Below are positions 691 through 17,392 of a stretch of 20,471 bases of DNA, one piece after another. The first letter of the stretch is position 1. Every line of letters starts with the position of its first letter. This stretch comes from a virus. Below the pieces are notes generated by a model, which saw only the letters and a list, made by a program, of their open reading frames with translations, made no database searches and was not told where the DNA came from. The stretch covers positions 1 through 20,471 of IMG/VR virus record IMGVR_UViG_3300018424_000334. One strand, given 5' to 3'. The position numbers and the translations under genes were made by a program.

Positions 691-1548
691 ATGAATAAGG
701 GTATAATCCTATTTGCTCACAACAATAGGCAGATTGATTATGCCTTGATGAGCCTCCTAACAGCAAAATTAGCAAAGAAACATTTAGATGTTCCGGTAAG
801 TCTAATAACTGATCCTTCAACAGTTGATTGGATGAAAGAATCGGACATTCTTAAGAAAGCAACTGAAATCTTTGAACAGATAATAATTACTCAGCGTCCG
901 GAAGATGGAAACATGAGAAATTTTTCCGACGGTAAAAATATTAAACCAGCACCATTTAGTAATGGTAATAGATTTTCTGCTTATGATCTTACACCGTACG
1001 ATAGAACATTATTAATTGATACGGATTATCTAGTGCTATCAAATAATCTAAATGAGTATTGGGATGTCGATAGTGACTTATTAATGTCTCCTAAATATAA
1101 TGATATTATAGGTAAGGAAAGAATAGGTTATTTAGATTCACACATATCAGATACTGGAGTTGAAATGTATTGGGCAACAACAGTAATGTTTACGAAGAAC
1201 GAGTATAGCAAAATGTTTTTTGATTTAGTAGAATACATTAAAACCGAATACAAGATGTTTGCTGATGTTTTTAGATTTGATCCTAGAGTTTACAGAAATG
1301 ACATATCCTTTAGCATTGCCAAACACATTCTTAATGGTTATCAGAAAGTAAATGAATACAATCTTCCTGATGTATTTTCAACTACAGATAAGGATATCTT
1401 ACACAATGTATCTGACAATAAATTACAATTTTTAGTTTCAGATAAAGATAATTTTATTGCTGCTTCTGTTAATAATAAAGATGTGCATGTTATGAATAAG
1501 TTTAGCATAGTTCGTAATTACGAAAAGTTGATGGAGTTAGCAGAATGA
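691..1548 (+). CDS. GT-A type glycosyltransferase-like protein (GT8-like), copy 1
   Basis: This 285-residue protein has the layout of a GT-A fold nucleotide-sugar transferase. An N-terminal strand and helix (GIILFAHNNRQIDYA) is followed by VPVSLITD. A DxD motif lies at D110-T-D112 in YDRTLLIDTDYLV, the expected metal and nucleotide-sugar site. A C-terminal VHVMNK (about residues 265-270) is placed like the late metal-ligand His of GT8 enzymes. The donor and acceptor are unknown. No signal peptide or membrane segment is visible, so it probably acts in the cytoplasm. It begins three bases after the previous stop and overlaps the next gene by ATGA. The following protein shares the same order of elements and is likely a diverged paralogue. 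Assignment to a specific GT family is by motif pattern only. Confidence 0.72.
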   Translation: MNKGIILFAHNNRQIDYALMSLLTAKLAKKHLDVPVSLITDPSTVDWMKESDILKKATEIFEQIIITQRPEDGNMRNFSDGKNIKPAPFSNGNRFSAYDLTPYDRTLLIDTDYLVLSNNLNEYWDVDSDLLMSPKYNDIIGKERIGYLDSHISDTGVEMYWATTVMFTKNEYSKMFFDLVEYIKTEYKMFADVFRFDPRVYRNDISFSIAKHILNGYQKVNEYNLPDVFSTTDKDILHNVSDNKLQFLVSDKDNFIAASVNNKDVHVMNKFSIVRNYEKLMELAE

Positions 1549-2387
1549 CGTTTGGATATCTATTGATTGTATCAGAAAAAGACGATACTAATTATGCAAG
1601 GCTTGCTTATGCTCTTGCATTGAGCATAAAGAATACCCAGAAAGAAGGATACGATAAAGTAGCATTAATAATCAACGACAAGAAAAGACTAGAAGGATTC
1701 ACATCAACATGGGTATTTGATGAAATTATCGAATGGAACGAAGCAGACTTCTGGGATGGAAGATCTCACATGGACTTGTTAAGTCCTTGGGACCAAACGA
1801 TATGCCTTGATGCTGACATGCTGTTCCTTAGGGATTACAGCCACTGGGTAGAATATTTTATTAAGAATTGTGAATTATATGTTGCTAACAAATCCTATAC
1901 CTATCGAGGAGAAGTTGTAAAAGATGAATATTACAGAAAAACTTTTTTAGCAAACGAGTTGCCTAACTTATATTCCTTTTACACATTTTTCGTTAAAGAT
2001 AGTCAGTTAGCAAAAGAATTTTTTAACTTGCAAAGAGAAATTATCAAGAATCCTAAGGAATTTAGTAATCTATTCCTAAACAATTATAAACCTAAGATAG
2101 TAGGAACAGACGAAGCCTTTGCACTGTCGGCTAAGATACTAGATATAGCAGATGAAATTTCTTATCATTTAGAATTTCCTAGAGTAGTACACATGAAAGG
2201 AATGATACAGAAGTGGCCTTATCCTGCAGACAGTTGTTATGATCATGTTGGTTTTTATTTTAACAGACAGGGTAAATTAAAACTAGGAAACTTTGAACAA
2301 ACTGATATTGTCCATTACGTAGATAAGGACAAGATCACTCTAGAAACAATAAACATATTGGAGGAAATAGCATGGAAGAAAAAATAA
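1545..2387 (+). CDS. GT-A type glycosyltransferase-like protein (GT8-like), copy 2
   Basis: This 280-residue protein starts at the ATGA shared with the previous stop. It repeats the scheme of its neighbour: an N-terminal strand (GYLLIVS), a helix rich in Ala and Leu, KVALIINDKKR, and a DxD motif at D89-A-D91 in WDQTICLDADMLFL. In the C-terminal third, RVVHMKGMIQKW contains a His suited to metal binding, as in GT8 enzymes. It carries no transport signal. It probably transfers a sugar from a nucleotide-sugar donor; the substrate is unknown. Placement beside a similar enzyme suggests successive sugar additions or subfunctionalised duplicates. The only part I would call certain is the GT-A-like core with DxD. 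Confidence 0.72.
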   Translation: MTFGYLLIVSEKDDTNYARLAYALALSIKNTQKEGYDKVALIINDKKRLEGFTSTWVFDEIIEWNEADFWDGRSHMDLLSPWDQTICLDADMLFLRDYSHWVEYFIKNCELYVANKSYTYRGEVVKDEYYRKTFLANELPNLYSFYTFFVKDSQLAKEFFNLQREIIKNPKEFSNLFLNNYKPKIVGTDEAFALSAKILDIADEISYHLEFPRVVHMKGMIQKWPYPADSCYDHVGFYFNRQGKLKLGNFEQTDIVHYVDKDKITLETINILEEIAWKKK

Positions 2388-3016
2388 AACTTCCGGATTT
2401 TGACGAGTGGATCAAGAACTACAAACCAGAGCCGGTAGTCTATTGTGCTGCTTTTGATCCAGAATCAGGAAAGGTATTAGCAGTAGGTCCTAATCACGCT
2501 GTTAATGAAAAACAATATAGCAATGTAATAGAATTAGATTCTGATGTTGCTGAAAAAATTATATCTGGTGATATAAGGATGAGCAAGTGTTTTGTTGATC
2601 CGCATGAAGGAAAACTAGAAATAGTAGAAGTAAAAGATCTATTCAAGATTGACGATATGTTGCATAGAATTATTGTCAAGGAATGGTCAGACATTAAGAA
2701 GCCTGATATTCACTTGACACACTATGCTGATGGTAATACACTAATAATACAATTATCAGAAGAATATGGCGGAACATATAAGCAAGATGAGGAACACCAG
2801 CCAGTGGCAAAAAGAAAAATGTTTTGGGACGGTGATACGGTATTAGACTTTACTATAACTGATTACAATGATCCTAATGTTATTGCTGATAACTTTAGCA
2901 TTAAAATTAACGAATTAGTTGGAAATAAGGTTATTAAGTCCGAACTAAACATTCCAAAGTATTTTAGTGTATACACTAGAAGACTATTTAAAAATTACAT
3001 GATTGAGGAAAAATGA
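2372..3016 (+). CDS. Unknown protein inside the glycosyltransferase run
   Basis: This 214-residue protein starts at an ATG with GGAGGAAATAGC in front of it and overlaps the previous gene by 16 bases. The N-terminal part (residues 20-70) reads PVVYCAAFDPESGKVLAVGP and then a run of mixed strands. The C-terminal part (about 110-180) is beta-rich with Asp, Tyr and Asn. There is no DxD glycosyltransferase core, no Cys cluster and no membrane segment. I do not recognise the family. A PAS-like or fibre-type beta domain could be imagined but is not supported by a motif. It overlaps the next start by ATGA, so it is translated with the glycosyltransferases around it. It might be the acceptor protein being modified, or a scaffold; both are guesses from position. 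Confidence 0.75.
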   Translation: MEEKIKLPDFDEWIKNYKPEPVVYCAAFDPESGKVLAVGPNHAVNEKQYSNVIELDSDVAEKIISGDIRMSKCFVDPHEGKLEIVEVKDLFKIDDMLHRIIVKEWSDIKKPDIHLTHYADGNTLIIQLSEEYGGTYKQDEEHQPVAKRKMFWDGDTVLDFTITDYNDPNVIADNFSIKINELVGNKVIKSELNIPKYFSVYTRRLFKNYMIEEK

Positions 3017-3918
3017 AAAAAGTAGTTGAGTTTGATGTTTTCTTTTTGAGTTACGATGAGCCTAATGCAGATTTGCATTACGCTGATCTATGTAACAAAG
3101 TGCCTTGGGCCAAAAGAATACACGGTGTAAAGGGTTCAGATCATGCACACAAGGCAGCAGCAGAACAATCAGAAACTGATTGGGTTTTAACTGTTGATGC
3201 TGACAACATTGTATATCCAGAATTCTTTGACATAGAAATAGACATGGACAATCCGGACATTCGTGCATACAGTTGGTGCGGTCGCAACAATGTTAATGGC
3301 CTGCGCTATGGAAATGGCGGATTAAAACTGTGGAACAGAGAGCATGTGCTTAATATGAAGACGCATGAAAATGCAGACAGTGAAAGAGCTCAGGTTGATT
3401 TTTGTTGGGAAGATGGTTATAGAAATTTTCCTAAAACATTTAGTGACACGGTAATTAATGCAACACCCTTTATGGCATGGCGTGCTGGATTCCGCGAAGG
3501 TGTAAAAATGACACTGGATGGCGGATTAAAAGTTCCTTCACAAGAAATTGAAAAACGTATTTGGTGGCACAATATGCACAGGCTAAGAATGTGGAGCACA
3601 GTTGGAAGTCATGTTGAAAATGGTTTGTTTGCTGTATATGGAGCACGTCTAGGAACATATCTTACAAACTGTACGGACTGGGATCATGTTCAGGTTAGAG
3701 ATTTTGAATGTTTGCGTGATCTTTACAATGAAAAATGTAAACAATACGAAGACGGTTTTGGTCTTGAACAAGAAATTAAGTGGTTAGGAAGTGAACTAAG
3801 ACATGAACTAGGATTTAACTATCCTAATTTAGATCCATCGATGAGCAAATATGTAATGGATTTATATGAGGAATCTATTAATTTAGGAAAAACATACTTC
3901 AGTCAAATTTATGTATGA
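3013..3918 (+). CDS. Phage glycosyltransferase-like protein, single DxD domain
   Basis: This 301-residue protein shows one complete copy of a domain that recurs in the next gene. The order is FDVFFLSYDEPNAD (7-20), a helix ending in a GVKGSDHAHKAAAEQSETDW run (38-57), the DxD motif LTVDADNIV (D62-A-D64), YGNGGLKLW (99-107), and a C-terminal MAWRAGFREGVKM block with Trp, Arg and Glu. This is the pattern of a GT-A sugar transferase, with D62/D64 as likely metal ligands. I recall similar proteins, usually uncharacterised, in marine T4-like phages. No signal peptide or membrane helix is present. The ATGA start overlap ties it to the previous gene. Donor and acceptor are not readable from the sequence. 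Confidence 0.7.
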   Translation: MKKVVEFDVFFLSYDEPNADLHYADLCNKVPWAKRIHGVKGSDHAHKAAAEQSETDWVLTVDADNIVYPEFFDIEIDMDNPDIRAYSWCGRNNVNGLRYGNGGLKLWNREHVLNMKTHENADSERAQVDFCWEDGYRNFPKTFSDTVINATPFMAWRAGFREGVKMTLDGGLKVPSQEIEKRIWWHNMHRLRMWSTVGSHVENGLFAVYGARLGTYLTNCTDWDHVQVRDFECLRDLYNEKCKQYEDGFGLEQEIKWLGSELRHELGFNYPNLDPSMSKYVMDLYEESINLGKTYFSQIYV

Positions 3919-4966
3919 TATATTTTTTGTCAGCAAGGGAGAAATCAACATTAATGCTTGGACTAAGTTCAAGCAATTAGTACCCCATGCACAAAAAATA
4001 GAAAACTGTGATACTTTTGAAAAGGCAGCAGACAAATCCTTAACAAAACATTTTTGGGTAGTTTGGGATAATATCACGATTAATCCAGATTTTGAATTTA
4101 ATTATAGAATTCCGGAGTGGGACGAAAAATACATTCATGTGTTTAAGAACGGATTATATCATGATGGCATTTGCATTTTCCCCAAGCGTGCTAAGATCCT
4201 ACAGAGAGAATGGGACTATCGTTTTTTCACAAATAAAAAAGAAATGGATATGATAGCAAGCCAACCTGTTCCGTATGATGTTGCATTTATTTCATACCAC
4301 GAAGAAAACGCAGAAAAGAATTTTAATAAATTGCTTGAAAAAGCACCTCATGCACAATGGACACGCGATGTCAAGGGCATACACCAAGCACACATTGAAG
4401 CAGCAAGAAAGGCAACCACGGACATGTTCTACATAGTTGATGCGGATGCTGACGTGTTGGAAGATTTTAACTTTGACATGCAGATACCCTACTATGATTT
4501 CAATGCAAGAAAGAGCGTGTATGTTTGGCGCAGCAGAAATCCAATAACGGATTTGGAATATGGATACGGTGGAGTAAAACTGTTTCCGAGAGAAGCAACG
4601 CTAAACATGGATACTAATACTCCAGACATGACCACGAGCCTTTCTGACAGTTTCCGTGCAATGGAACAAGTAAGTAACATAACAGCGTTTAACACAGATG
4701 CATTCAGCACCTGGAAGAGCGCATTTAGAGAGTGTTGCAAATTGGCAAGCAGAACCATAAGGGGACAGAACGATGATGAAACGGATCAAAGGCTTAGCAA
4801 GTGGTGTTCGGACTATGGGCGTGACAGACCTTTTGGCGACTATGCGATCAATGGCGCCCGTGCTGGCAGGGTTTATGGTGTGGCTAACAGTGCTAATCCT
4901 GATGCTCTTAGGTTAATAAATGATTTTGATTGGTTAAAGGAACAGTTTGATGCAGGACAAGGATAG
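3911..4966 (+). CDS. Two-domain glycosyltransferase-like protein with a degenerate first domain
   Basis: This 351-residue protein contains the family domain twice. Residues 1-112 are a shortened copy beginning YDIFFVSKGEININAW. Where the metal motif should be it reads FWVVWDNITINP (about 48-59), so the DxD is lost. Residues 122-350 are a full copy: YDVAFISYHEENAEKNF, then KGIHQAHIEAARKATTDMF, then IVDADADVL (D177-A-D179), then EYGYGGVKLFPRE (216-228), then TWKSAFRECCKL. The second half is therefore the likely catalytic unit, and the first may bind substrate or a partner, or pair with the gene before it. It overlaps the previous gene by 8 bases and the next by 17. Base composition rises in G+C in the second half, from about 4250 on. 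Confidence 0.7.
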   Translation: MYDIFFVSKGEININAWTKFKQLVPHAQKIENCDTFEKAADKSLTKHFWVVWDNITINPDFEFNYRIPEWDEKYIHVFKNGLYHDGICIFPKRAKILQREWDYRFFTNKKEMDMIASQPVPYDVAFISYHEENAEKNFNKLLEKAPHAQWTRDVKGIHQAHIEAARKATTDMFYIVDADADVLEDFNFDMQIPYYDFNARKSVYVWRSRNPITDLEYGYGGVKLFPREATLNMDTNTPDMTTSLSDSFRAMEQVSNITAFNTDAFSTWKSAFRECCKLASRTIRGQNDDETDQRLSKWCSDYGRDRPFGDYAINGARAGRVYGVANSANPDALRLINDFDWLKEQFDAGQG

Positions 4967-6311
4967 AATACAGAGTTTTGAGCCTATTATGGACGAGATA
5001 TCGCCTACCTTCTGCATGGCCAAATGGCACCATACCACAATATATCTGCAGACGGGCGAAACGCACAGTTGCTATCATCCCGCACCACACAAGATTCCGC
5101 TGGAAGGATTGGAAGAGAATCCAAGCCAACTGCATAACACTCCACAGAAGAAAGCGGAGCGACAGCAGATGATCAATGGCGAAAAGCCGAGCGGTTGCCA
5201 ATACTGCTGGAACATTGAATGCATGGGCAAGGATTATATAAGCGATAGGAAGGAAAGAAATGCGAGTATCCATACTGAAGAAAGATTTGCTGCAATTAAG
5301 GCAGACCCTATGGCTGATGTTAATCCGCAGTATGTAGAAATTTCATTTGGTAATGAGTGTAACTTCAAGTGCGGCTATTGCCATCCCAAGCACAGCAGCA
5401 CATACCACAAGGAGATTAGGGATCACGGTCCATACACCATGGTTAAGAATCATCGCAATGACATTGACTGGTTCAAGATACACAAGGAAGAGGACAATCC
5501 ATACGTAAAAGCGTTTTGGAAATGGTGGCCCGAACTGCGTAAGACGCTTACAATTTTACGCATCACGGGAGGCGAGCCTCTGCTACAGCAGAGCACGTGG
5601 CGCATGTTTGATGAGTTGGAAAAGAATCCAATGCCCAACCTTGAACTAAACATCAATTCAAACTTTGGTGTCAAGCACATACTGATAGAACGCTTTGCTG
5701 ACAAGGTTAATAGTCTTGTTGAGAAAGGTTGCATCAAGGACTTCAAGGTATTCACCAGCATGGACACCTGGGGCGAACAGGCGGAATACATACGCACTGG
5801 ATTGGATTTGGAGTTATGGGAAAAGAACTTTGACACATACATGACCAAGACCAATCATCCACTAACGTTCATGGTCACTTTTAATATACTAACCGTTACC
5901 AACTTCCACAAACTACTAGAGAAGTTTCTATACTGGCGCAAGAAGTATAACGTAGATAATCAAACCAAGTGGCAGAGAATACGCTTTGATACACCCTACC
6001 TAAAGGAGCCACTACAGTATGACATGAACATACTGCCCAAGGAATACTTCATGCCCTACATGGAAAAGCATTTAGAATTCATTAAGGACAACATGGATGA
6101 TACAGATAGGCACAAGTTTAGCGAACTTGAATATGAAAAGTTTCGCCGCGTGGTTGATTACATGCGAACAACAAATTACTCTGCTGAGAAACTCGCAGAA
6201 GGTCACAAGGACTTTTTCAATTGGTTCACGGAATATGACCGCAGACGAGGTCTTGACTTCGTCAAGACTTTTCCTGAACTAGAGGAATTTTATTTTGACT
6301 GCGCCCAGTAA
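4950..6311 (+). CDS. Radical SAM protein with N-terminal twitch-like cysteines, copy 1
   Basis: This 453-residue protein has a radical SAM core. CNFKCGYC at 137-144 is the CX3CX2C that binds the 4Fe-4S cluster and S-adenosylmethionine, and ITGGEPLL (205-212) is the SAM-amino-group motif. Before the core lie C22, C41, C83, C86 and C91, arranged like the auxiliary-cluster cysteines of twitch/SPASM enzymes but N-terminal. Such enzymes modify peptides, sugars or nucleosides; the substrate here is unknown. I use ATG at 4950, eight bases after AAGGA, not the TTG just before it. The gene overlaps both neighbours. Two lines from its 5' part count at about 48% G+C, against 22-33% in lines from adjacent genes, and Lys is mostly AAG, so it may be a recent acquisition. 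No partner precursor peptide was found. Confidence 0.8.
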   Translation: MQDKDRIQSFEPIMDEISPTFCMAKWHHTTIYLQTGETHSCYHPAPHKIPLEGLEENPSQLHNTPQKKAERQQMINGEKPSGCQYCWNIECMGKDYISDRKERNASIHTEERFAAIKADPMADVNPQYVEISFGNECNFKCGYCHPKHSSTYHKEIRDHGPYTMVKNHRNDIDWFKIHKEEDNPYVKAFWKWWPELRKTLTILRITGGEPLLQQSTWRMFDELEKNPMPNLELNINSNFGVKHILIERFADKVNSLVEKGCIKDFKVFTSMDTWGEQAEYIRTGLDLELWEKNFDTYMTKTNHPLTFMVTFNILTVTNFHKLLEKFLYWRKKYNVDNQTKWQRIRFDTPYLKEPLQYDMNILPKEYFMPYMEKHLEFIKDNMDDTDRHKFSELEYEKFRRVVDYMRTTNYSAEKLAEGHKDFFNWFTEYDRRRGLDFVKTFPELEEFYFDCAQ

Positions 6312-7482
6312 AACATTCTGCATATTGCCTTGGATACACCTGTATGCCAATCCTGACGGAAATGTATTGCCTTGTTGCGTAGGAGATTGGCAAAAGCCAA
6401 TGGGTAATGTTCAAAACAAAAAATTAGAAGATGTCTTTAACAATGAAAAGTTTAAGCAGATGCGTACGAATATGCTAAAAGGTAAACGCTGCGAAGAATG
6501 CACTGCCTGCTATAGAGACGAAGATGCTGGTAATAGCAGTTTTAGAAAACATTCAAATGAGCAATTTGAAAAATATATTGATGATGCAGTGCTAAACACT
6601 AATGATGATGGCAGCATGGACGACTTTAGGTTGCGATATTTAGATGTTAGATGGAGTAACATTTGTAATTTTAAGTGTCGATCGTGTGGCGGAACATATT
6701 CATCTAGTTGGGCAAAAGAAGATGGAAAGTCAAATGCTTACACGTTTGCCGGTGGTGATTCAAATGATGATCTGTATAAGCAGTTCGAACCTCACTTTGA
6801 TACCATAGAAGAATTTTACTTTGCAGGCGGTGAGCCTTTACTTACGGATAAACATTACGAAATATTAGAATATCTAATTGATCACGGTCGGACAGATGTA
6901 AAGTTAAGATACAACACAAACATGAGTGTATTAAAATATAAAGGAAAAAATATTTTAGACTTATGGAAAAAATTTAGTAATGTTGTAATTGGAGCAAGCC
7001 TGGATCATTATGGATCTAAGGCTGAATACATACGGCACGGGACAGATTGGTCTTTGGTTGAAAGTAATTTAAAATTAATTCGCAAGGAAACTCCTCATGT
7101 AGAATTACATACAAACACGGTGGTATCTATTTTTAATATAAAGACCTTGCCTGAGTTTGTTCAATATATTATTGATAACGATCTAGTTAGTATAGAAAAC
7201 TATAATCCTAACTTTTATAACATAATGAATCCAGACTATTATAGTTTTAAGATGATACCAGAAGAGGACAAGATAGACATCATAAAATCCTTGGAAGAGT
7301 TTGCTTCAAAGCATAAAGGAAACATCGAATACGGAATACAGGGTGTTATAAACGGACTAAGGTCATCGGTATATTCACCTGAACTTAAAACAAAGTTGCA
7401 GATAAAAACAAAATACTATGATCATTTGCGTAAGGAAAATGTAGAAGAAACTTTTCCCGAAATACAAGGATGGTTTAAATGA
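6295..7482 (+). CDS. Radical SAM protein with N-terminal twitch-like cysteines, copy 2
   Basis: This 395-residue protein starts at TTG (6295), supported by AGAGGA eight bases upstream and by conserved sequence beginning almost at once. FCILPWIHLY (8-17), DGNVLPCC (21-28) and CEECTAC (66-72) form an auxiliary-cluster set of the twitch/SPASM kind, here ahead of the core. The core motif CNFKCRSC (124-131) is CX3CX2C, and FAGGEPLL follows at 176-183. The family acts on diverse substrates, often peptides or sugars; which one is not known. It overlaps the preceding radical SAM gene by 17 bases and the next gene by ATGA. It is strongly AT-rich with AAA for Lys, unlike its partner, so the two are not a recent duplication. 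They may act in sequence or as a complex. Confidence 0.82.
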   Translation: MTAPSKTFCILPWIHLYANPDGNVLPCCVGDWQKPMGNVQNKKLEDVFNNEKFKQMRTNMLKGKRCEECTACYRDEDAGNSSFRKHSNEQFEKYIDDAVLNTNDDGSMDDFRLRYLDVRWSNICNFKCRSCGGTYSSSWAKEDGKSNAYTFAGGDSNDDLYKQFEPHFDTIEEFYFAGGEPLLTDKHYEILEYLIDHGRTDVKLRYNTNMSVLKYKGKNILDLWKKFSNVVIGASLDHYGSKAEYIRHGTDWSLVESNLKLIRKETPHVELHTNTVVSIFNIKTLPEFVQYIIDNDLVSIENYNPNFYNIMNPDYYSFKMIPEEDKIDIIKSLEEFASKHKGNIEYGIQGVINGLRSSVYSPELKTKLQIKTKYYDHLRKENVEETFPEIQGWFK

Positions 7483-8705
7483 AAATTTACTTCGACACAT
7501 TAAAAAAAGATGAATCAAATCAGAATCATCTGACCTCAAATGGAAATAACGACTATTGGCTAATCGCACCAGGTGCGCCCATTAAAAAAAAGTGCATAGA
7601 AATGAAACTGGATCTTTCGGAGTTAACAGATGTTAACGAAACAGGAATATATTTTGTGGACGTTAGAAATGATCCCCAATGGTGGGCAGGCGTATTAACA
7701 AACGATGGTGTTCCTCACACTCACATACTGCATTGCTTAACCGAGGAAATAAGAAAACTAGCCAAGGAAAAGAAGATTAGGATCGTAATCAATGCGGATA
7801 GAGAAGGTGGCCCAATGGTTACACAGCATTGGGATTGCTTTTTAACCACGCATACCGCAATGGTTGAACTTGGATTGCCCAAGGACAGCGTTCTAATACT
7901 ACAGGGCAACAAGAAGGTAGAGCACCAGTATCGCAGATGGCTAAAAGCCAAGGGTGTTGATAGGCTCTATGATGTAATGTATAGCAATCACTTCGGAAAC
8001 ATATTTGGAGATGATAAATTACCAACTGCTCCTGTCATAAAATACGCCATGGCGAACCCTGCCAGCAAGGATTACAACAGCCTTAACAGAGTTTATCGTC
8101 CGCAAAGAGGTGCACACCTATACAGGCTCATGAAGGACGGAGTATTGGACAAAGGTATAGTAAGTGGCAATGAAATAATATTACGAAATGTAGAAACAGA
8201 AATGCTTGTGGGAGATTATTCGGACATAGACAAGGAGTTTCCTAGGTTCATAGATGGAGATTGGAGCAAGATAAATGCTGCCAATCAATACAATGTTGAC
8301 ATTTATAAGAATAGTTTGCTTTCAGTCATTACAGAAACTATGTTTCTGGAAGACGTTGCATTCATCACGGAAAAGATATTCAAACCCATCACAATGGGAC
8401 ATCCACTCATACTGTTTGCCAGCCAAGGAACTCTAAGATGCCTGGAGGACATGGGATTTAGAACGGACTGGTGCGGTATAGATCCTGCATACAATGATAT
8501 ACAAGATAATGTTGAACGATTCAATGCTACGCAGCAGGTTCTCAACGACTGGATAGCACTGCCACAGGAAGAAAAGATAGCAAGATTAGAAAAGAGCATG
8601 GATACCATACAGCATAATTTTGATTTAATAAGGCGTAGTGACTTCTATGCTGATGCCATCAATGAAGCAGTTGCCAGGACGGAGAAGTATTATGAAACCG
8701 TTTAA
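7479..8705 (+). CDS. GT10/fucosyltransferase-like glycosyltransferase, copy 1
   Basis: In the C-terminal half of this 408-residue protein, SLLSVITETMFLEDVAFITEK (279-299) leads into IFKPITMGHPLILFAS (300-315). This has the layout of the GT10 alpha-1,3-fucosyltransferase signature (an E/ENS stretch, then TEK, then a Gly-Pro loop) that binds the GDP-sugar. An earlier block, LNRVYRPQRGAHLYRLMKDG (202-221), recurs in the gene at 9450. The N-terminal third is mixed alpha/beta and unassigned. A GT-B transferase using a nucleotide-sugar is likely; fucose itself is not established. The start is the ATGA shared with the radical SAM stop, with AAGGA upstream. G+C is higher than in the radical SAM gene just before it. 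Confidence 0.65.
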   Translation: MKIYFDTLKKDESNQNHLTSNGNNDYWLIAPGAPIKKKCIEMKLDLSELTDVNETGIYFVDVRNDPQWWAGVLTNDGVPHTHILHCLTEEIRKLAKEKKIRIVINADREGGPMVTQHWDCFLTTHTAMVELGLPKDSVLILQGNKKVEHQYRRWLKAKGVDRLYDVMYSNHFGNIFGDDKLPTAPVIKYAMANPASKDYNSLNRVYRPQRGAHLYRLMKDGVLDKGIVSGNEIILRNVETEMLVGDYSDIDKEFPRFIDGDWSKINAANQYNVDIYKNSLLSVITETMFLEDVAFITEKIFKPITMGHPLILFASQGTLRCLEDMGFRTDWCGIDPAYNDIQDNVERFNATQQVLNDWIALPQEEKIARLEKSMDTIQHNFDLIRRSDFYADAINEAVARTEKYYETV

Positions 8706-9453
8706 TCAATATAAACGTTTTTTTGCGTTTGGTTGCAGCCTAACCAAATATAATTGGCCCACATGGGCTGACATAATAGCAACTGAAGTTCCAGAGTATT
8801 ACAATTATGGACAGAGTGGCGGCGGGAATCTATTCATAGCCAACAGCATTGTGGAAGCAAACCTTACCCACAAATTTACGGAAGATGATTTGGTTATTGT
8901 AATGTGGAGCAGCGTAAGCAGAGAAGATAGATATAGGAATGGAAAGTGGCAAACCCCAGGTAATATATACTCTCAAGGAGAAATAGACATGGAGTTTGTT
9001 TATAAATGGAGCGATGATAGATTTTACCTAATGAGAGATTTAGGGTTGGTTGAACAGACCAGAGCTTATCTTGAAAATCTACCATGCGACTCGGACATGC
9101 TGAAGATGGTGGACTTCGAGGAAATAAAAATATCCGACAACATAAAGGGAAATCATCTAGAGGACATATTAAAACTATATTCATCTACTATTAATAGTGT
9201 TAAACCTGCAATAGTTGATGTTGTGTATGATGGTGTATGGCCTATTATTCCCATAAAGGGTTGGGGAGGTGAAGGGCAGACAGCAGACTATCATCCCACA
9301 CCATTGGGTTATCTCAAGTATCTTGAAAAGTTTTATTCGATTACCGAAGGCATGAGAAAATATGCAGAGGAATATGATGCAAGGGTCTTGGAGTGTAAGA
9401 CATTGGATGATACTGTAAAGTTTTGGTCCGCACCAGGAGTGGCAAGGCTATGA
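8692..9453 (+). CDS. SGNH/GDSL hydrolase-like protein
   Basis: This 253-residue protein has the blocks of an SGNH esterase in order. Block I is FFAFGCSLTKYNWP with Ser16 as candidate nucleophile. NYGQSGGGN (38-46) supplies the Gly/Asn oxyanion residues. MWSSVSRED (71-79) stands at block III. ADYHPTPLGY (198-207) is the block V D-x-H with D199 and H201. Such enzymes remove or transfer acyl groups on sugars and lipids, which fits a glycan cassette. No signal peptide is visible. I chose ATG at 8692, after GGAG at a 7-base distance, because the longer frame from 8638 lies inside the previous gene and the conserved part begins at residue 10. It overlaps the previous gene by 14 bases and ends in ATGA with the next. 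It sits between two related transferases. Confidence 0.68.
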   Translation: MKPFNQYKRFFAFGCSLTKYNWPTWADIIATEVPEYYNYGQSGGGNLFIANSIVEANLTHKFTEDDLVIVMWSSVSREDRYRNGKWQTPGNIYSQGEIDMEFVYKWSDDRFYLMRDLGLVEQTRAYLENLPCDSDMLKMVDFEEIKISDNIKGNHLEDILKLYSSTINSVKPAIVDVVYDGVWPIIPIKGWGGEGQTADYHPTPLGYLKYLEKFYSITEGMRKYAEEYDARVLECKTLDDTVKFWSAPGVARL

Positions 9454-10607
9454 TGGCGTGTGTTAACACAAGGAATTTGTTGTATGTTATTACCTATGAC
9501 CCTAATAATCCCAAGGTTGAGGTTGTTCAAAGCAGTGTAGCCATTACTGAGTTTCATAAATCCGACAAAGATTTTTTCTACATTCAGTTTTCTGATCCTA
9601 GCAGTTTTAGGATAGTTGATGTAAAGGGTTTAATCCCAGAAGAGGAATTTGAACAGATTAAGGATCCTAATTCCAATCTTCATCTGATGCTGGACAATGC
9701 ATTGGAATTTTATCTCCTGAGTGCTGATACGATATACGAGGAAATTGTAATCAAGCACGGCGTTCCTGCAGAAAAGATAATCTTTCTTAGTGCCATTCCA
9801 ACCATGCACGAATACATTAAAAAGTTATCAGAAAAATATAAATTGCCCGAGATTAAACTAGAATGGTTTAACCTATTTGAACACACGGGTCGCAATGCAA
9901 GACTGCTATCAAAGGATGTGGAAACTCTTAATAAGAAACAATCGTATGAACGATCATTCCTTTGCTTAAACAGAAGATGGAGAATGCATCGTCCTTTAAT
10001 GTTCACTCTGCTCAAGGACAGGGGATTGGTAGACAAGGGGTTTATTAGCCTTGCACCCTCCGATGACGGTATGGATTGGAATAAAGTTTTTCCGAGATTG
10101 AGATTGATGTATCAAAATCATGCACTGATAGATCCTATACTGGAAAGAAATTCTGATGTCATAAACACTCCACCTTTATATTTGGATCTGGAGGATCTCG
10201 TCACGAACAGGGCAGAACCAGAAGTGTCAATAAATGAATATTACAAGAAAACATATTTCAGCCTAATTAATGAAACCACGTATCATGAGAATGTTCCCTT
10301 CTTCAGCGAAAAGATTTTTAAGGCAATAGGCATGGGGCATCCGTTCCTAGTTGCAACGGCAGCAAACAGTTTACAGTATCTAAGAAAGTTAGGATATAAA
10401 ACTTTTCATCCTTTCATTGACGAATCATATGATAATATTTCGGACGACGGAAAGAGAATGTTAGCGATCGTTGATGAGGCTAAACGACTCTGTAATTTGG
10501 ACAAGGCTGAGTTCAAATCCTGGAGAGCGAGCGTGGAACCAATAGTTAGGCACAATCAAAGATTAATCGAATCAAAAAGAAGCATATCGCAGCGAATGAA
10601 CTATTAG
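9450..10607 (+). CDS. GT10/fucosyltransferase-like glycosyltransferase, copy 2
   Basis: This 385-residue protein is a relative of the one at 7479. FLCLNRRWRMHRPLMFTLL (170-188) followed by LVDKGFIS corresponds to the earlier NRVYRPQR block. YFSLINETTYHENVPFFSEK (269-288) and IFKAIGMGHPFLVATA (289-304) correspond to its ETMF...TEKIFKPI...GHP signature. A GT-B nucleotide-sugar transferase is the likely function. The N-terminal 140 residues differ from the paralogue and may set acceptor choice. The start is the ATG of the ATGA overlapping the hydrolase stop; a second ATG follows directly, and an upstream in-frame start at 9423 has no ribosome site. It is the last gene of the overlapping run. A 10-base palindrome lies at its start and again just after its end. 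Confidence 0.65.
   Translation: MMACVNTRNLLYVITYDPNNPKVEVVQSSVAITEFHKSDKDFFYIQFSDPSSFRIVDVKGLIPEEEFEQIKDPNSNLHLMLDNALEFYLLSADTIYEEIVIKHGVPAEKIIFLSAIPTMHEYIKKLSEKYKLPEIKLEWFNLFEHTGRNARLLSKDVETLNKKQSYERSFLCLNRRWRMHRPLMFTLLKDRGLVDKGFISLAPSDDGMDWNKVFPRLRLMYQNHALIDPILERNSDVINTPPLYLDLEDLVTNRAEPEVSINEYYKKTYFSLINETTYHENVPFFSEKIFKAIGMGHPFLVATAANSLQYLRKLGYKTFHPFIDESYDNISDDGKRMLAIVDEAKRLCNLDKAEFKSWRASVEPIVRHNQRLIESKRSISQRMNY
9460..9469. repeat. Perfect palindrome GTGTTAACAC, copy 1
   Basis: GTGTTAACAC followed by AAGG lies four codons into the gene starting at 9450. The same palindrome, with AAGG two bases further on, is at 10656. The function is unknown; it could be a recombination or protein-binding site, or coincidence. 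Confidence 0.55.
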
Positions 10608-10655
10608 TAGCACCGAATTAAGGCGTCTAAAACGCATTTTAAGCGTCATACAGCG

Positions 10656-10665
10656 GTGTTAACAC
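10656..10665. repeat. Perfect palindrome GTGTTAACAC, copy 2
   Basis: This is the second copy of the palindrome found at 9460, here in the spacer 49 bases after the transferase gene ends and followed by ACAAGG. The two copies flank nearly the whole gene at 9450-10607. Confidence 0.55.
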
Positions 10666-10729
10666 ACAAGGTGTTATAGTTGAACCCTGTAAGAAACAAT
10701 CAGGTTTAAAAGGTGTTTAACTGCGTTTT

Positions 10730-10737
10730 TGTAAATA
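10730..10737 (+). promoter_or_regulatory. Possible late promoter, one mismatch (TGTAAATA)
   Basis: TGTAAATA differs from the NATAAATA late box at its second base and lies about 30 bases before the start codon of the dehydrogenase, the usual distance. The spacer suggests a separate transcription start is needed. The match is imperfect, so this is tentative. Confidence 0.35.
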
Positions 10738-10766
10738 CTTTTGGTTATAACAGTAGAGGAAAAAAT

Positions 10767-11948
10767 ATGAAAATTGGATTTATTGGACTGGGTAAATTAG
10801 GTCTGCCCTGTGCTGAAGTGGTTGCCCAAAAAGGTCATGATGTTACAGGATATGATATTGTTGATGTCCAAACTGATAAAGTTCAATTTAAAACTACCAT
10901 AGAGGATTGTGTTAAGGATAGAGAGATAGTTTTTATAGCAGTTCCTACACCGCACGATCCAGCATATGATGGTAGGGCACCAACAGCACACCTACAACCA
11001 AAAGATTTTTCATACGATATTGTTCACAGTGTTCTTAAGGAAGCAAACGAACACATGAACAAGGATCAACTGCTTGTTCTTATTTCAACAGTATTGCCAG
11101 GAACGGTCAGAAGAGAATTTATACAGCACATTACTAATCCGAGATTCGTTTATAACCCATATCTAATTGCAATGGGAACGGTAGCATGGGACATGGTTAA
11201 TCCTGACATTGTCATGATTGGAACAGAAGATGGCAGCACAACAGGTGATGCCAAACAACTGGTAGAATTTTATAAAACCATTATGGAAAATGATCCAAGT
11301 TATGAAATTGGAACATGGGATGAATGTGAGTGCATCAAGGTATTCTACAATACATTCATATCAACAAAACTTGGATTGGTTAACATGATGCAGGATGTTG
11401 CCGAAAGGCAAGGCAACATTAATGTTGATGTTGTTACTCGTGCGTTAGTGAATAGCACACAGAGAATAACAGGCCCTGCATATATGAAAGCAGGTCTTGG
11501 CGATGGAGGTGGATGCCATCCGAGAGATAACATTGCATTGCGTTTCATGGCAGACAAATTAAATTTGGGTTATGATTTATTTGATGCAATAATGAATGCA
11601 AGAGAAAAGCAAGCCAAGAACATGGCCTCAAAATTAGTTTCTATTTCCAAAGAAAGAAATCTTCCTATCTTACTAAATGGTGTTGCATATAAACCAGGCG
11701 TTCCGTACCAGGACGGTAGTTACAGTTTATTGGTAGGACATTATTGTCACGAATTAGGTAGAGGTCCAATGACCATTGATCCTGCGATTGACTTGGGCGG
11801 CGGAATGGAATTTAGAGCAGTTGTGTTACTCGCCCATCCTACACTTTATATTAAACTAACTGATGATAGTGTTGTAGTTGATCCTTGGAGACAATACACT
11901 TCGGATAAGCATTTGGTTATTCACTACGGAAATACTAGAAAAAGTTAA
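10767..11948 (+). CDS. UDP-glucose/GDP-mannose dehydrogenase family protein
   Basis: This 393-residue protein follows the nucleotide-sugar 6-dehydrogenase plan. The NAD-binding motif GFIGLGKLGLP is at 4-14, FIAVPTP at 56-62 and STVLPGT at 107-113. A central helix has K191 and N195 (CIKVFYNTF). The active-site loop is LGDGGGCHPRD with C250, and the C-terminal GVAYKPGVPYQDGS lies in the nucleotide-binding domain. The family oxidises UDP-sugars or GDP-mannose to uronic acids, feeding surface glycans. An oddity is that where the family has NPEFLxEG the sequence is NPYLIAMG (130-137), so both usual Glu residues are missing. ATG 10767 is chosen because AGAGGA sits six bases before it and the Rossmann strand starts at residue 2. 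The stop shares bases with the convergent gene. Confidence 0.82.
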   Translation: MKIGFIGLGKLGLPCAEVVAQKGHDVTGYDIVDVQTDKVQFKTTIEDCVKDREIVFIAVPTPHDPAYDGRAPTAHLQPKDFSYDIVHSVLKEANEHMNKDQLLVLISTVLPGTVRREFIQHITNPRFVYNPYLIAMGTVAWDMVNPDIVMIGTEDGSTTGDAKQLVEFYKTIMENDPSYEIGTWDECECIKVFYNTFISTKLGLVNMMQDVAERQGNINVDVVTRALVNSTQRITGPAYMKAGLGDGGGCHPRDNIALRFMADKLNLGYDLFDAIMNAREKQAKNMASKLVSISKERNLPILLNGVAYKPGVPYQDGSYSLLVGHYCHELGRGPMTIDPAIDLGGGMEFRAVVLLAHPTLYIKLTDDSVVVDPWRQYTSDKHLVIHYGNTRKS

Positions 11949-13170: not shown

Positions 13171-13443
13171 TTAGTTTCTCCTTAGGTATGGACATGCTAA
13201 CATAAAGTATGTTAGTTCTTTTTGTTCTTCAAACCCCACAAACGTGGATGTATGAAATTTATTTTCCTCGTTAACAGAAGGATAAGTCACAATGCAATAT
13301 CGTCCTGTTAGTTTAGATTTAATCCAATCAATAATGTTTTGATCAGCCCTTTCGCTATTTCCAATTTTAATTTTTGAAAAATGCGGAGGCATGGTTTTTA
13401 GTTGTCTTGAATTCAAAACGTCAAGTGGATTAAGTTCTATCAT
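13171..13443 (-). CDS. Small phage protein, unknown function, directly behind a late promoter
   Basis: This 90-residue protein starts at ATG 13443. It has short basic and hydrophobic stretches (IIDWIKSKLTGRYCIVTYPS, then TYFMLACPYLRRN) that suggest a small alpha/beta domain. No motif is recognised. The late box TATAAATA ends five bases before the ATG, which puts the expected first base of the late transcript on the A of the start codon. No leader or ribosome site would then exist. Either the message is leaderless or translation begins further in, for example at residue 18 (MPPHF), though no ribosome site is seen there either. Transcripts from upstream genes could also supply it. Confidence 0.75.
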   Translation of the reverse strand: MIELNPLDVLNSRQLKTMPPHFSKIKIGNSERADQNIIDWIKSKLTGRYCIVTYPSVNEENKFHTSTFVGFEEQKELTYFMLACPYLRRN

Positions 13444-13448
13444 GTAAT

Positions 13449-13456
13449 TATTTATA
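13449..13456 (-). promoter_or_regulatory. T4-type late promoter (TATAAATA), perfect match
   Basis: Read on the minus strand this is TATAAATA, the exact T4 late consensus, in the 24-base gap between two genes. The late start is expected about six bases downstream, at about 13443, the first base of the next start codon. It would drive the genes from 13443 down to 11945. Confidence 0.7.
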
Positions 13457-13870: not shown

Positions 13871-14152
13871 CTATTCTTTATCTCCGGTAGTAAGTCTGTA
13901 CACTGAAAAATCAGTTGTATTAAAGAGTTTGTTAAGTTTCTTGGCTAAGTTTCTAGCATGTCCTGGATTTGAAAATGAGACCTTCTTATATTTAGGACCA
14001 GGATAACTAGCAACAGCACTTCCGCTTTTTAGATTGAAAGGTTTGTTCTGATAAAACACTGCCCAAATGGCTTCGCTCTCGAGAATCTGTTCTACTTTAT
14101 ATGTTTCTCGATTAGTATGTTCGAGAATTATTGTTGGTTTTGGTCTACTCAT
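13871..14152 (-). CDS. Small phage protein, unknown function, behind a late promoter and hairpin
   Basis: This 93-residue protein starts MSRPKPTIILEHTNRETYKV. It continues with AIWAVFYQNKPFNLK and SYPGPKYKKVSFSNPGHARN, an alternation of strands with basic loops, and ends in a short acidic tail. I recall the SYPGPKYKKVSF block from marine T4-like phages, with no function. The start codon lies at the edge of a perfect 11-base inverted repeat, and a late promoter overlaps the other arm, so expression is probably late only. AGGA lies 11 bases before the ATG, in the loop. No enzyme motif is seen. Confidence 0.8.
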   Translation of the reverse strand: MSRPKPTIILEHTNRETYKVEQILESEAIWAVFYQNKPFNLKSGSAVASYPGPKYKKVSFSNPGHARNLAKKLNKLFNTTDFSVYRLTTGDKE

Positions 14153-14185
14153 ATATACGTAATTCCTAGTTAACTACGTATATAT
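14151..14185 (-). promoter_or_regulatory. Inverted repeat over the start codon, probable early-off/late-on translation switch
   Basis: The arms at 14151-14161 and 14175-14185 are perfect 11-base complements with a 13-base loop. In minus-strand RNA the 3' arm includes the first two bases of the AUG at 14152, and the loop holds AGGA. The late promoter at 14183-14190 should start transcripts near 14177, removing most of the 5' arm. Read-through RNA would fold and hide the start codon; late RNA would not. T4 genes e, soc and 49 use this design. Confidence 0.6.
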
Positions 14186-14190
14186 TTATC
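14183..14190 (-). promoter_or_regulatory. T4-type late promoter (GATAAATA)
   Basis: Read on the minus strand this is GATAAATA, in the 43-base gap before the gene starting at 14152. The expected start of transcription is about 14177, giving a leader of roughly 25 bases that keeps the AGGA ribosome site. It overlaps the right arm of the inverted repeat. Confidence 0.7.
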
Positions 14191-16281: not shown

Positions 16282-17202
16282 CTATGTTCCGATAGCATTA
16301 CCAAACAAGTATACATGCACTCTTGCAGCCACATTGTATCCCCTTTGGAAAGCCATCTTAGCAACAGAACCGGCTGTTGCAGTTTGCTCTTCTTCTCTAG
16401 CACCAACAGGCATTACCCAAATCGGATAATCTATTCCTTGTGCCTTAAATTGTGAGATTACTTGTTCCATTTCATCCCACTGTTGTTGTTCGGAACCAAC
16501 AACAAATTTTAGTTGTCCTCTGTTACTTAAATTTCTATATTCTGCTACCACTTCAGGCTTAATTGCTTTCTTTGCAGTTTCACCTGCTACACTCCATAGT
16601 TTAGGACTTACACTAAAGAATAGTTCGACATCCTTAGTAATTTCGTTATCAACATACCAGAATTCTTTAAACTCCTGTGTAAGTTCTTGTGTGCCATTAG
16701 TTTCAAATGTAACACTAGCAGGCATGTTGTTTAATCTTTTAAATTCTGTCATGATACCAATGAATGCTTCTTGACCATGTTTCATTAGAGGCTCACCACC
16801 CGTAACACAGAAATGTTGTCTCTGTCCTGTAACGGGATGTAAAAATTTACCCTCTGGATTGGAATCTGTCTTTAATATATTAATAATATCATGTGCAAGT
16901 TCAACAGCAGTTTTCTGACCCATTAAGTGTTTAAACTTCTTGCTCCAAGTATAACTGCTATCACAACCTTTTTCCCATACAGGCAAGTCTTCAACTCTTT
17001 TAACTTGGCTCACATCATAATCTTCGAATGGTAAATCATATGTGTCCGGATTCGTAGGATCAACCTGACCAAAACCGTTACACTGTAGATTACATAGGAA
17101 GAAACGTATCCACGCAGTGGGCACGCCTGTATAATGTCCTTCACCCTGTATGCTGTGAAAGATTTCGCTATAGTAGTATTTCTTGTCAGTTGCTATTGTC
17201 AT
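16282..17202 (-). CDS. queE: QueE-like 7-carboxy-7-deazaguanine synthase (radical SAM)
   Basis: This 306-residue protein makes, by family, 7-carboxy-7-deazaguanine from 6-carboxytetrahydropterin on the path to preQ0, queuosine or deazaguanine DNA bases. The visible signatures are YYSEIFHSIQGEGHYTGVPT (10-29), WIRFFLCNLQC (31-41), FCVTGGEPLM (131-140), FETNGTQEL and VSPKLWSVAG. The cluster motif is altered: C37 and C41 are followed by a 38-residue insert before C80 (GCDSSYTW), where a standard enzyme has CX2C. Phage and some bacterial QueE have extended loops here, so it may still bind a cluster. The start at ATG 17202 overlaps the previous gene by 17 bases. A perfect sigma-70 promoter ends seven bases before it. 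No queC, queD, folE or dpdA is in the window. Confidence 0.86.
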   Translation of the reverse strand: MTIATDKKYYYSEIFHSIQGEGHYTGVPTAWIRFFLCNLQCNGFGQVDPTNPDTYDLPFEDYDVSQVKRVEDLPVWEKGCDSSYTWSKKFKHLMGQKTAVELAHDIINILKTDSNPEGKFLHPVTGQRQHFCVTGGEPLMKHGQEAFIGIMTEFKRLNNMPASVTFETNGTQELTQEFKEFWYVDNEITKDVELFFSVSPKLWSVAGETAKKAIKPEVVAEYRNLSNRGQLKFVVGSEQQQWDEMEQVISQFKAQGIDYPIWVMPVGAREEEQTATAGSVAKMAFQRGYNVAARVHVYLFGNAIGT

Positions 17203-17392
17203 TGTCTTTATTATACGCTTTCTCTTGATGATTGTCAACCTTTTTAGACAGCGAAAATGTGCCATTAAAGTTGTCAGTCCAAACCAAATCGTCACCTATA
17301 TCCCAGCCCATTTGGTTCAATAATTCTGTGGGTAGAGGAAGAACCAAATCACCAGTATCCGGATCTTCCTCAACTTTTACGGTAAGTTCCAA
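17186..17392 (-). CDS. AbrB/MazE-like small protein
   Basis: This 68-residue protein starts at TTG (17390-17392), with TAAGGAG (the stop of the gene before, plus its own ribosome site) six bases upstream. Residues 8-50 read DPDTGDLVLPLPTELLNQMG then WDIGDDLVWTDNFNGTFSLS. This is the swapped-hairpin pattern of AbrB/SpoVT/MazE DNA-binding domains: strand, Pro, helix, Gly-Asp turn, strand. The C-terminal tail is Asn/Asp/Lys-rich. Proteins of this type bind DNA as dimers. A regulatory role is possible but unproven, and it could be a structural relative without DNA binding. The promoter of queE lies inside the end of this gene. Confidence 0.7.
   Translation of the reverse strand: MELTVKVEEDPDTGDLVLPLPTELLNQMGWDIGDDLVWTDNFNGTFSLSKKVDNHQEKAYNKDNDNSN
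17210..17238 (-). promoter_or_regulatory. Perfect sigma-70 promoter, TTGACA-17-TATAAT
   Basis: On the minus strand TTGACA (17238-17233) is followed by 17 bases and TATAAT (17215-17210), a 12 of 12 match with ideal spacing. The expected start is near 17203, one base before the queE ATG. It lies inside the end of the AbrB-like gene. It is probably an early promoter read by unmodified host RNA polymerase, driving queE and the genes after it. Confidence 0.8.

Follow-up and report, generated by a model that had tools for sequence, protein, structure and literature searches.

A proposed late virion glycosylation cassette in large aquatic T4-like phages: fixed core, exchangeable periphery

The window analysed here is the whole 20,471-base IMG/VR fragment IMGVR_UViG_3300018424_000334, and our subject is a cassette of putative glycosyltransferase, radical SAM and other sugar-related genes that it carries on its + strand. 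Ten consecutive same-strand genes, g1 to g10, occupy positions 691–10607, with neighbours overlapping by 4–17 bases, and a 159-base gap separates g10 from a dehydrogenase gene, g11 (10767–11948, +); an earlier sequence-only reading of this DNA had described just such a row of ten overlapping genes followed by a dehydrogenase. That reading overlooked g0 (337–687, +), the gene of a small conserved protein of 116 amino acids, which belongs to the same unit and heads it. Relatives of the cassette are found, in hundreds, in uncultivated aquatic virus contigs: g6 relatives are present in 331 virus contigs and g2 relatives in at least 581. So that the count would not be circular, linkage was scored in loci that g2 or g0 had retrieved by itself. 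The successive adjacencies from g0 to g5 are unbroken in 122/122, 124/124, 125/125, 120/120 and 116/116 loci; as one virus or its near relatives were in some cases sampled several times, these are not counts of independent events. An N-twitch radical SAM gene lies near g5 in 77 of the 78 loci that were found without g6. This order holds while the amino-acid identity of the core homologues to those of the window falls as low as 37–50%. Against a linked cassette the sequence-only reading had set homologues scattered singly, and it is the linked arrangement that was found. Among isolated phages, neither a DNA megablast search nor tblastn searches with g2, g4, g5, g8 and u0 (the gene family upstream of g0, below) gave a match, and no isolated phage was found to carry the exact fixed core.

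The cassette lies next to tail genes. The window begins with the C-terminal end of a u0-type protein (2–277, +), which is Ser/Thr-rich, structural-like and 300–350 amino acids long in relatives, and a member of this family stands directly upstream of g0 in 104 of 106 loci and, in another count, in 55 of 55. In a 98-kb record (G007) one strand carries tail and baseplate genes, then the tail fibres, two u0 genes and g0–g11. Conserved co-occurrence near tail genes, which the sequence-only reading had said would support one pathway, was thus found. The T4-like affiliation given in the same reading also held, by way of related contigs: Gp23 lies outside the window and is present in the cassette-carrying records G007, G015–G019 and G021, and the G007 major capsid protein has its nearest counterparts in jumbo T4-like phages such as Phosso, Vibrio 2.275.O, CBB, GAP32 and PA5oct.

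Copies of ATAAATA, the core of the T4 late promoter, number three in the window where 8.8 would be expected, and all of them stand immediately in front of a gene, in that gene's orientation. One of these sites, the T4-type late promoter motif GATAAATA (301–308, +), lies 28 bases ahead of g0; the other two, at 13449–13455 and 14183–14189 on the − strand, precede genes at 13171–13443 and 13871–14152. Across relatives ATAAATA precedes g0 in 54 of 66 distinct upstream sequences, mostly by 25–31 bases, and the remaining 12 carry the one-base variants CTAAATA or GTAAATA, while it is found in none of 356 distinct sequences upstream of g1–g6. Sigma-70-type promoters and intrinsic terminators occur in the window at chance level only. 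At the level of promoter motifs these observations bear out the late expression that had been suggested, and they support a single late transcription unit beginning at g0.

Four paralogous pairs had been perceived within the row. When family alignments of 14–21 relatives each were compared profile against profile (hhalign), all four were recovered, namely g1/g2 (E 9e-13), g4/g5 (E 2e-36, 34% identity), g6/g7 (E 7e-37) and g8/g10 (E 4e-36), and there was no score between unrelated families. Catalytic residues are invariant in all of the cassette's enzyme families. Nevertheless, no Pfam or NCBIfam glycosyltransferase model matches g1, g2, g4, g5, g8 or g10 at its cut-off, and PDB profile searches with g2, g4, g8, g9 and g10 returned no credible match. 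The DxD motif is invariant in both g1 (691–1548, +; D110-x-D112) and g2 (1545–2387, +; D89-x-D91), and g2 also has a C-terminal H..G motif (HMKGMIQ.WP). The sole PDB lead for g1 is the GT8 enzyme glycogenin, which aligns in the DxD region with an E value of 0.6, and the Pfam GT8 model matches none of the 18 members of the g1 family or the 18 of the g2 family. The pairing and motifs of these two "GT8-like" proteins therefore stand, and the GT8 label is a motif-level one.

The second DxD-type pair consists of g4 (3013–3918, +), in which D62-A-D64 is invariant, and g5 (3911–4966, +). The predicted structure of g4 is poor (predicted local distance difference test score, pLDDT, 53) and its structural matches are mostly GT-A enzymes (best E 3e-3), in agreement with its invariant DAD; the pair itself is secure, and its GT-A fold is putative. 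Compared with g4, g5 has an additional ~120 residues at its N terminus (window 3911–4270), where its nucleotide-binding half is repeated in degenerate form (hhalign of the N- against the C-terminal part, 99.1%, E 1.5e-18) with the DxD lost, and the g5 homologue in record G007 is longer still, at 546 amino acids. The g8 protein (7479–8705, +), in contrast to g4, gives a confident predicted structure (pLDDT 91) that matches the GT-B enzymes BshA, SdgB, PimB' and MurG; all six PDB structures matched with E ≤ 1e-3 are GT-B enzymes, and a GT-B fold for g8 is thus supported by the structural model. Its paralogue g10 (9450–10607, +) may be called GT-B-like solely through homology to g8. The sequence-only reading had assigned these two to GT10, and this part did not stand: the Pfam GT10 model matches neither protein, and no GT10 fucosyltransferase structure is among the 50 g8 structure matches listed. 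Structure prediction, which that reading had proposed as a check for sugar-transferase folds, thus delivered one clearly in g8 and, from a poor model, a GT-A resemblance in g4.

The identity of the two radical SAM proteins is firmer. Both g6 (4950–6311, +; E 4e-98) and g7 (6295–7482, +; E 3.5e-119) cover the full NF033640 model, "twitch domain-containing radical SAM", at 329 and 398 bits, respectively, well above its cut-off of 170. In g6 the cysteines C22, C41, C83, C86 and C137/C141/C144 are invariant in 62 sequences, and in g7 the CX3CX2C SAM motif and the N-terminal auxiliary-cluster cysteines are invariant in 36, so that all Fe-S cysteines are conserved and the earlier call of two twitch-type radical SAM proteins was correct. 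No other gene of the cassette is as conserved as g6, whose median identity is 87%. The closest PDB match of the g7 auxiliary domain is BtrN (E 1e-3), a twitch-domain enzyme that oxidises 2-deoxy-scyllo-inosamine, a sugar-like aminocyclitol. A scan of genome contigs with g6 gave a single marginal match, in a Bacteroidetes metagenome-assembled genome, from which no host can be deduced. Some records arrange these genes differently. In a 53-kb record (G013; loci L068 and L109–L111) g0–g5 and g6–g11 form two separate blocks and there are eight radical SAM matches; in the 353-kb, Gp23-carrying record G015, g0–g5 are followed by four inverted tandem N-twitch radical SAM genes (G015:C1:158837-163846), and an inverted radical SAM module behind g5 is a feature of the clade L225–L238 to which this record belongs. 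Vibrio phage K566 (L114 4717-11459) has four N-twitch-like radical SAM genes with unannotated genes between them, and the Vibrio natriegens phage nt-1 also has an N-twitch-like radical SAM gene.

Three further genes complete the row. The 214-amino-acid g3 protein (2372–3016, +) belongs to no family recognised in family-model searches, and its gene is swapped for another, u13, in 4 loci. The g9 protein (8692–9453, +) had been called an SGNH hydrolase, and its invariant residues (S16, G43/45, N46, D199/H201) include the expected Ser, Gly, Asn and His; its catalytic block is, however, DxH and departs from the textbook DxxH, and no family model matches it, so the SGNH/GDSL-like label is kept at the motif level. 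The best match of g11 is the phage UDP-glucose-dehydrogenase family PHROG 9148 (E 3e-94, nearly full length), which agrees with the nucleotide-sugar dehydrogenase reported before, although it scores 153.7 bits against the NCBIfam model of that name (TIGR03026), below the cut-off of 189.8. A 788-amino-acid phage protein in BFVD, annotated as a UDP-glucose dehydrogenase, can be aligned with the g8 fold across about 386 columns, which suggests a g11–g8 fusion.

Behind g6 the fixed order ends. In 53 of 94 loci g6 is followed directly by g7, and in 20 the SGNH-like gene u3 is inserted between them. Elsewhere g7–g10 are replaced, in varied orders and sometimes inverted, by genes for a nucleoside diphosphate-sugar epimerase/dehydratase, other GT-B relatives, a GDSL hydrolase, a B12 radical SAM protein, a 2-oxoglutarate oxygenase or a DegT aminotransferase; one alternative gene, u11, matches GDSL with an E value of 1e-4. 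A close relative of the window is represented by two loci, L203 upstream and L032 downstream, that are identical where they overlap and probably belong to one virus. Its nucleotide identity to the window is 83–98% outside g7–g10 and falls to 61–75% across these four genes, a drop that looks like module exchange, or may reflect faster divergence in place. The variable sugar and tailoring partners of the core, together with the 788-amino-acid BFVD protein, make sugar chemistry well supported, as had been proposed from gene content.

We lean, with a good deal of reserve, towards the reading that the cassette is a late virion glycosylation unit of large aquatic T4-like phages, in which a fixed core is joined to an exchangeable periphery; a virion acceptor is favoured because of the late timing and the position next to tail fibres. 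On this model g1, g2, g4 and g5 would act in the cytoplasm and assemble a short, invariant core glycan on a virion protein that is expressed from the same late region; candidates for this acceptor are the tail fibres or the neighbouring u0 proteins, which are rich in Ser and Thr. The g6 protein would carry out a radical step on the core glycan or on the acceptor peptide, the exchangeable module (here g7–g10) would add and trim outer residues, and g11 would supply UDP-hexuronate. Exchange of the module would give a glycan that differs between close relatives, as expected under host-receptor or surface-recognition pressure. The more specific proposal, that the N-twitch enzymes radically alter the sugar or acceptor peptide of a tail-fibre glycan whose outer part is exchanged as a gene module, is a tentative one. 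Several points weigh against the model as a whole. The assignment of g1, g2, g4, g5 and g10 as glycosyltransferases is putative, drawn from motifs, weak matches, a poor model and paralogy; u0 is structural-like by position and composition, and it and the tail fibres are candidate acceptors only; g11 is absent in some relatives, and no sugar-nucleotide source other than g11 is fixed. In addition, the step catalysed by g6 and g7 might be on a sugar, the core glycan or a peptide, and the substrate of the N-twitch enzymes could be something other than a glycan.

The most serious alternative, which we regard as rather unlikely, is that the cassette alters the host surface polysaccharide (O-antigen or capsule) and thereby excludes rival phages or aids release. 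Change of the host surface is the published reading of the sugar clusters of cyanophages and jumbo phages (PMC7824862) and of pelagimyophages (PMC7029224); the polymorphism of the module fits it, and in cyanophage Bellamy and pelagiphage HTVC008M a related UDP-glucose dehydrogenase stands amid glycosyltransferase, epimerase and carbamoyltransferase genes. A late promoter and a place behind the tail fibres would, however, be late for the exclusion of rivals, and the row has no flippase, polyprenyl-phosphate glycosyltransferase or other membrane protein, there being no consistent transmembrane segments in any cassette gene family. Soluble glycosyltransferases could nonetheless work on lipid-linked sugars at the cytoplasmic face. 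A cell-surface O-antigen system of the Gtr type was considered and judged less likely, as the row is devoid of membrane proteins.

Should the radical SAM proteins instead mature a peptide or virion protein, with g0 or u0 as substrate, they might introduce a cross-link, epimerisation or dehydration of the kind found in ribosomally synthesised and post-translationally modified peptides, which the glycosyltransferases would then decorate. The N-twitch/SPASM-type architecture fits such a role, as do the small conserved g0 at the head of the row and the rank of g6 as its most conserved member, but g0 shows no feature of a precursor of such peptides among those tested for, the auxiliary domain of g7 is closest to that of BtrN, whose substrate is sugar-like, and we think this improbable. 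We give very little credence to hypermodification of phage DNA: phage glycosyltransferases that glycosylate DNA are known, but the position in a late tail region speaks against it, and no thymidylate-synthase-like gene (the fold of dCMP and dUMP hydroxymethylases) was found in 6 of 7 long, incomplete records. Equally slight is the chance that this is a cargo region in which unrelated auxiliary genes have come together fortuitously. Many unrelated enzymes do come and go behind g6, but the order g0–g6 is invariant at the low identities given above and the genes overlap, so that for g0–g6 this explanation is largely refuted.

How far does the cassette resemble known systems? Phage sugar clusters, their polymorphism, and the presence of glycosyltransferase and radical SAM genes in host-recognition clusters are already published. 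One of the closest systems is the pelagimyophage host-recognition cluster, whose glycosyltransferases are taken to act on host lipopolysaccharide; like the cassette, it belongs to T4-like aquatic phages and has glycosyltransferases (GT8 commonest), UDP-glucose dehydrogenase and radical SAM cassettes near tail fibres (PMC7029224). Unlike it, the present cassette has a fixed seven-gene core with two glycosyltransferase pairs and an N-twitch radical SAM gene, a single late-promoter motif and a bounded exchange module, and the major capsid protein, in the one case compared, most resembles those of jumbo T4-like phages. Clusters of the P-SSM2 type in jumbo phages and cyanophages share paralogous glycosyltransferases, epimerases and polymorphism between relatives; in the part of their description that bears on this point they include kinases and nucleotidyltransferases, which the cassette lacks, and neither radical SAM genes nor a fixed tail-linked core are mentioned there (PMC7824862). 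The UDP-glucose dehydrogenases of the Bellamy and HTVC008M clusters are 50–58% identical to g11, and homologues of g0–g10 were not detected in their 25-kb regions. In Vibrio phage KVP40 (L115 6701-9023) the radical SAM gene KVP40.0272 (24% identical to g7) adjoins KVP40.0274, which has a PF00534 glycosyltransferase domain, but in this and other Vibrio phages such pairs are single and scattered near nrd genes, not linked to tail genes and without g0–g5. A T4-like ocean genome, TARA_ERS488813_N000010, with 12 radical SAM genes, shows a similar expansion of such genes, and the relevant portion of its report describes no cassette or linkage to glycosyltransferases (PMC5332604). In the open-access literature we found no description of a fixed late core with an N-twitch radical SAM gene; within that scope, and with no isolated phage carrying it, the earlier statement that this exact gene combination is undescribed stood up, and the architecture of the cassette appears to be undescribed.

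If the proposed function is correct, hundreds of abundant uncultivated phages devote some 10 kb in the late tail region to a virion glycan made with radical chemistry, and a widespread, uncharacterised radical SAM family gains a function. It would also provide a defined system of fixed core and exchangeable periphery by which phages diversify their host-recognition structures in chemistry as well as in protein sequence. Finally, beyond g11 the window switches strand to replication and metabolism genes, among them an exonuclease and QueE; the QueE-like radical SAM gene (16282–17295, −), which stands with the replication-side genes, has a possible link to 7-deazaguanine chemistry.

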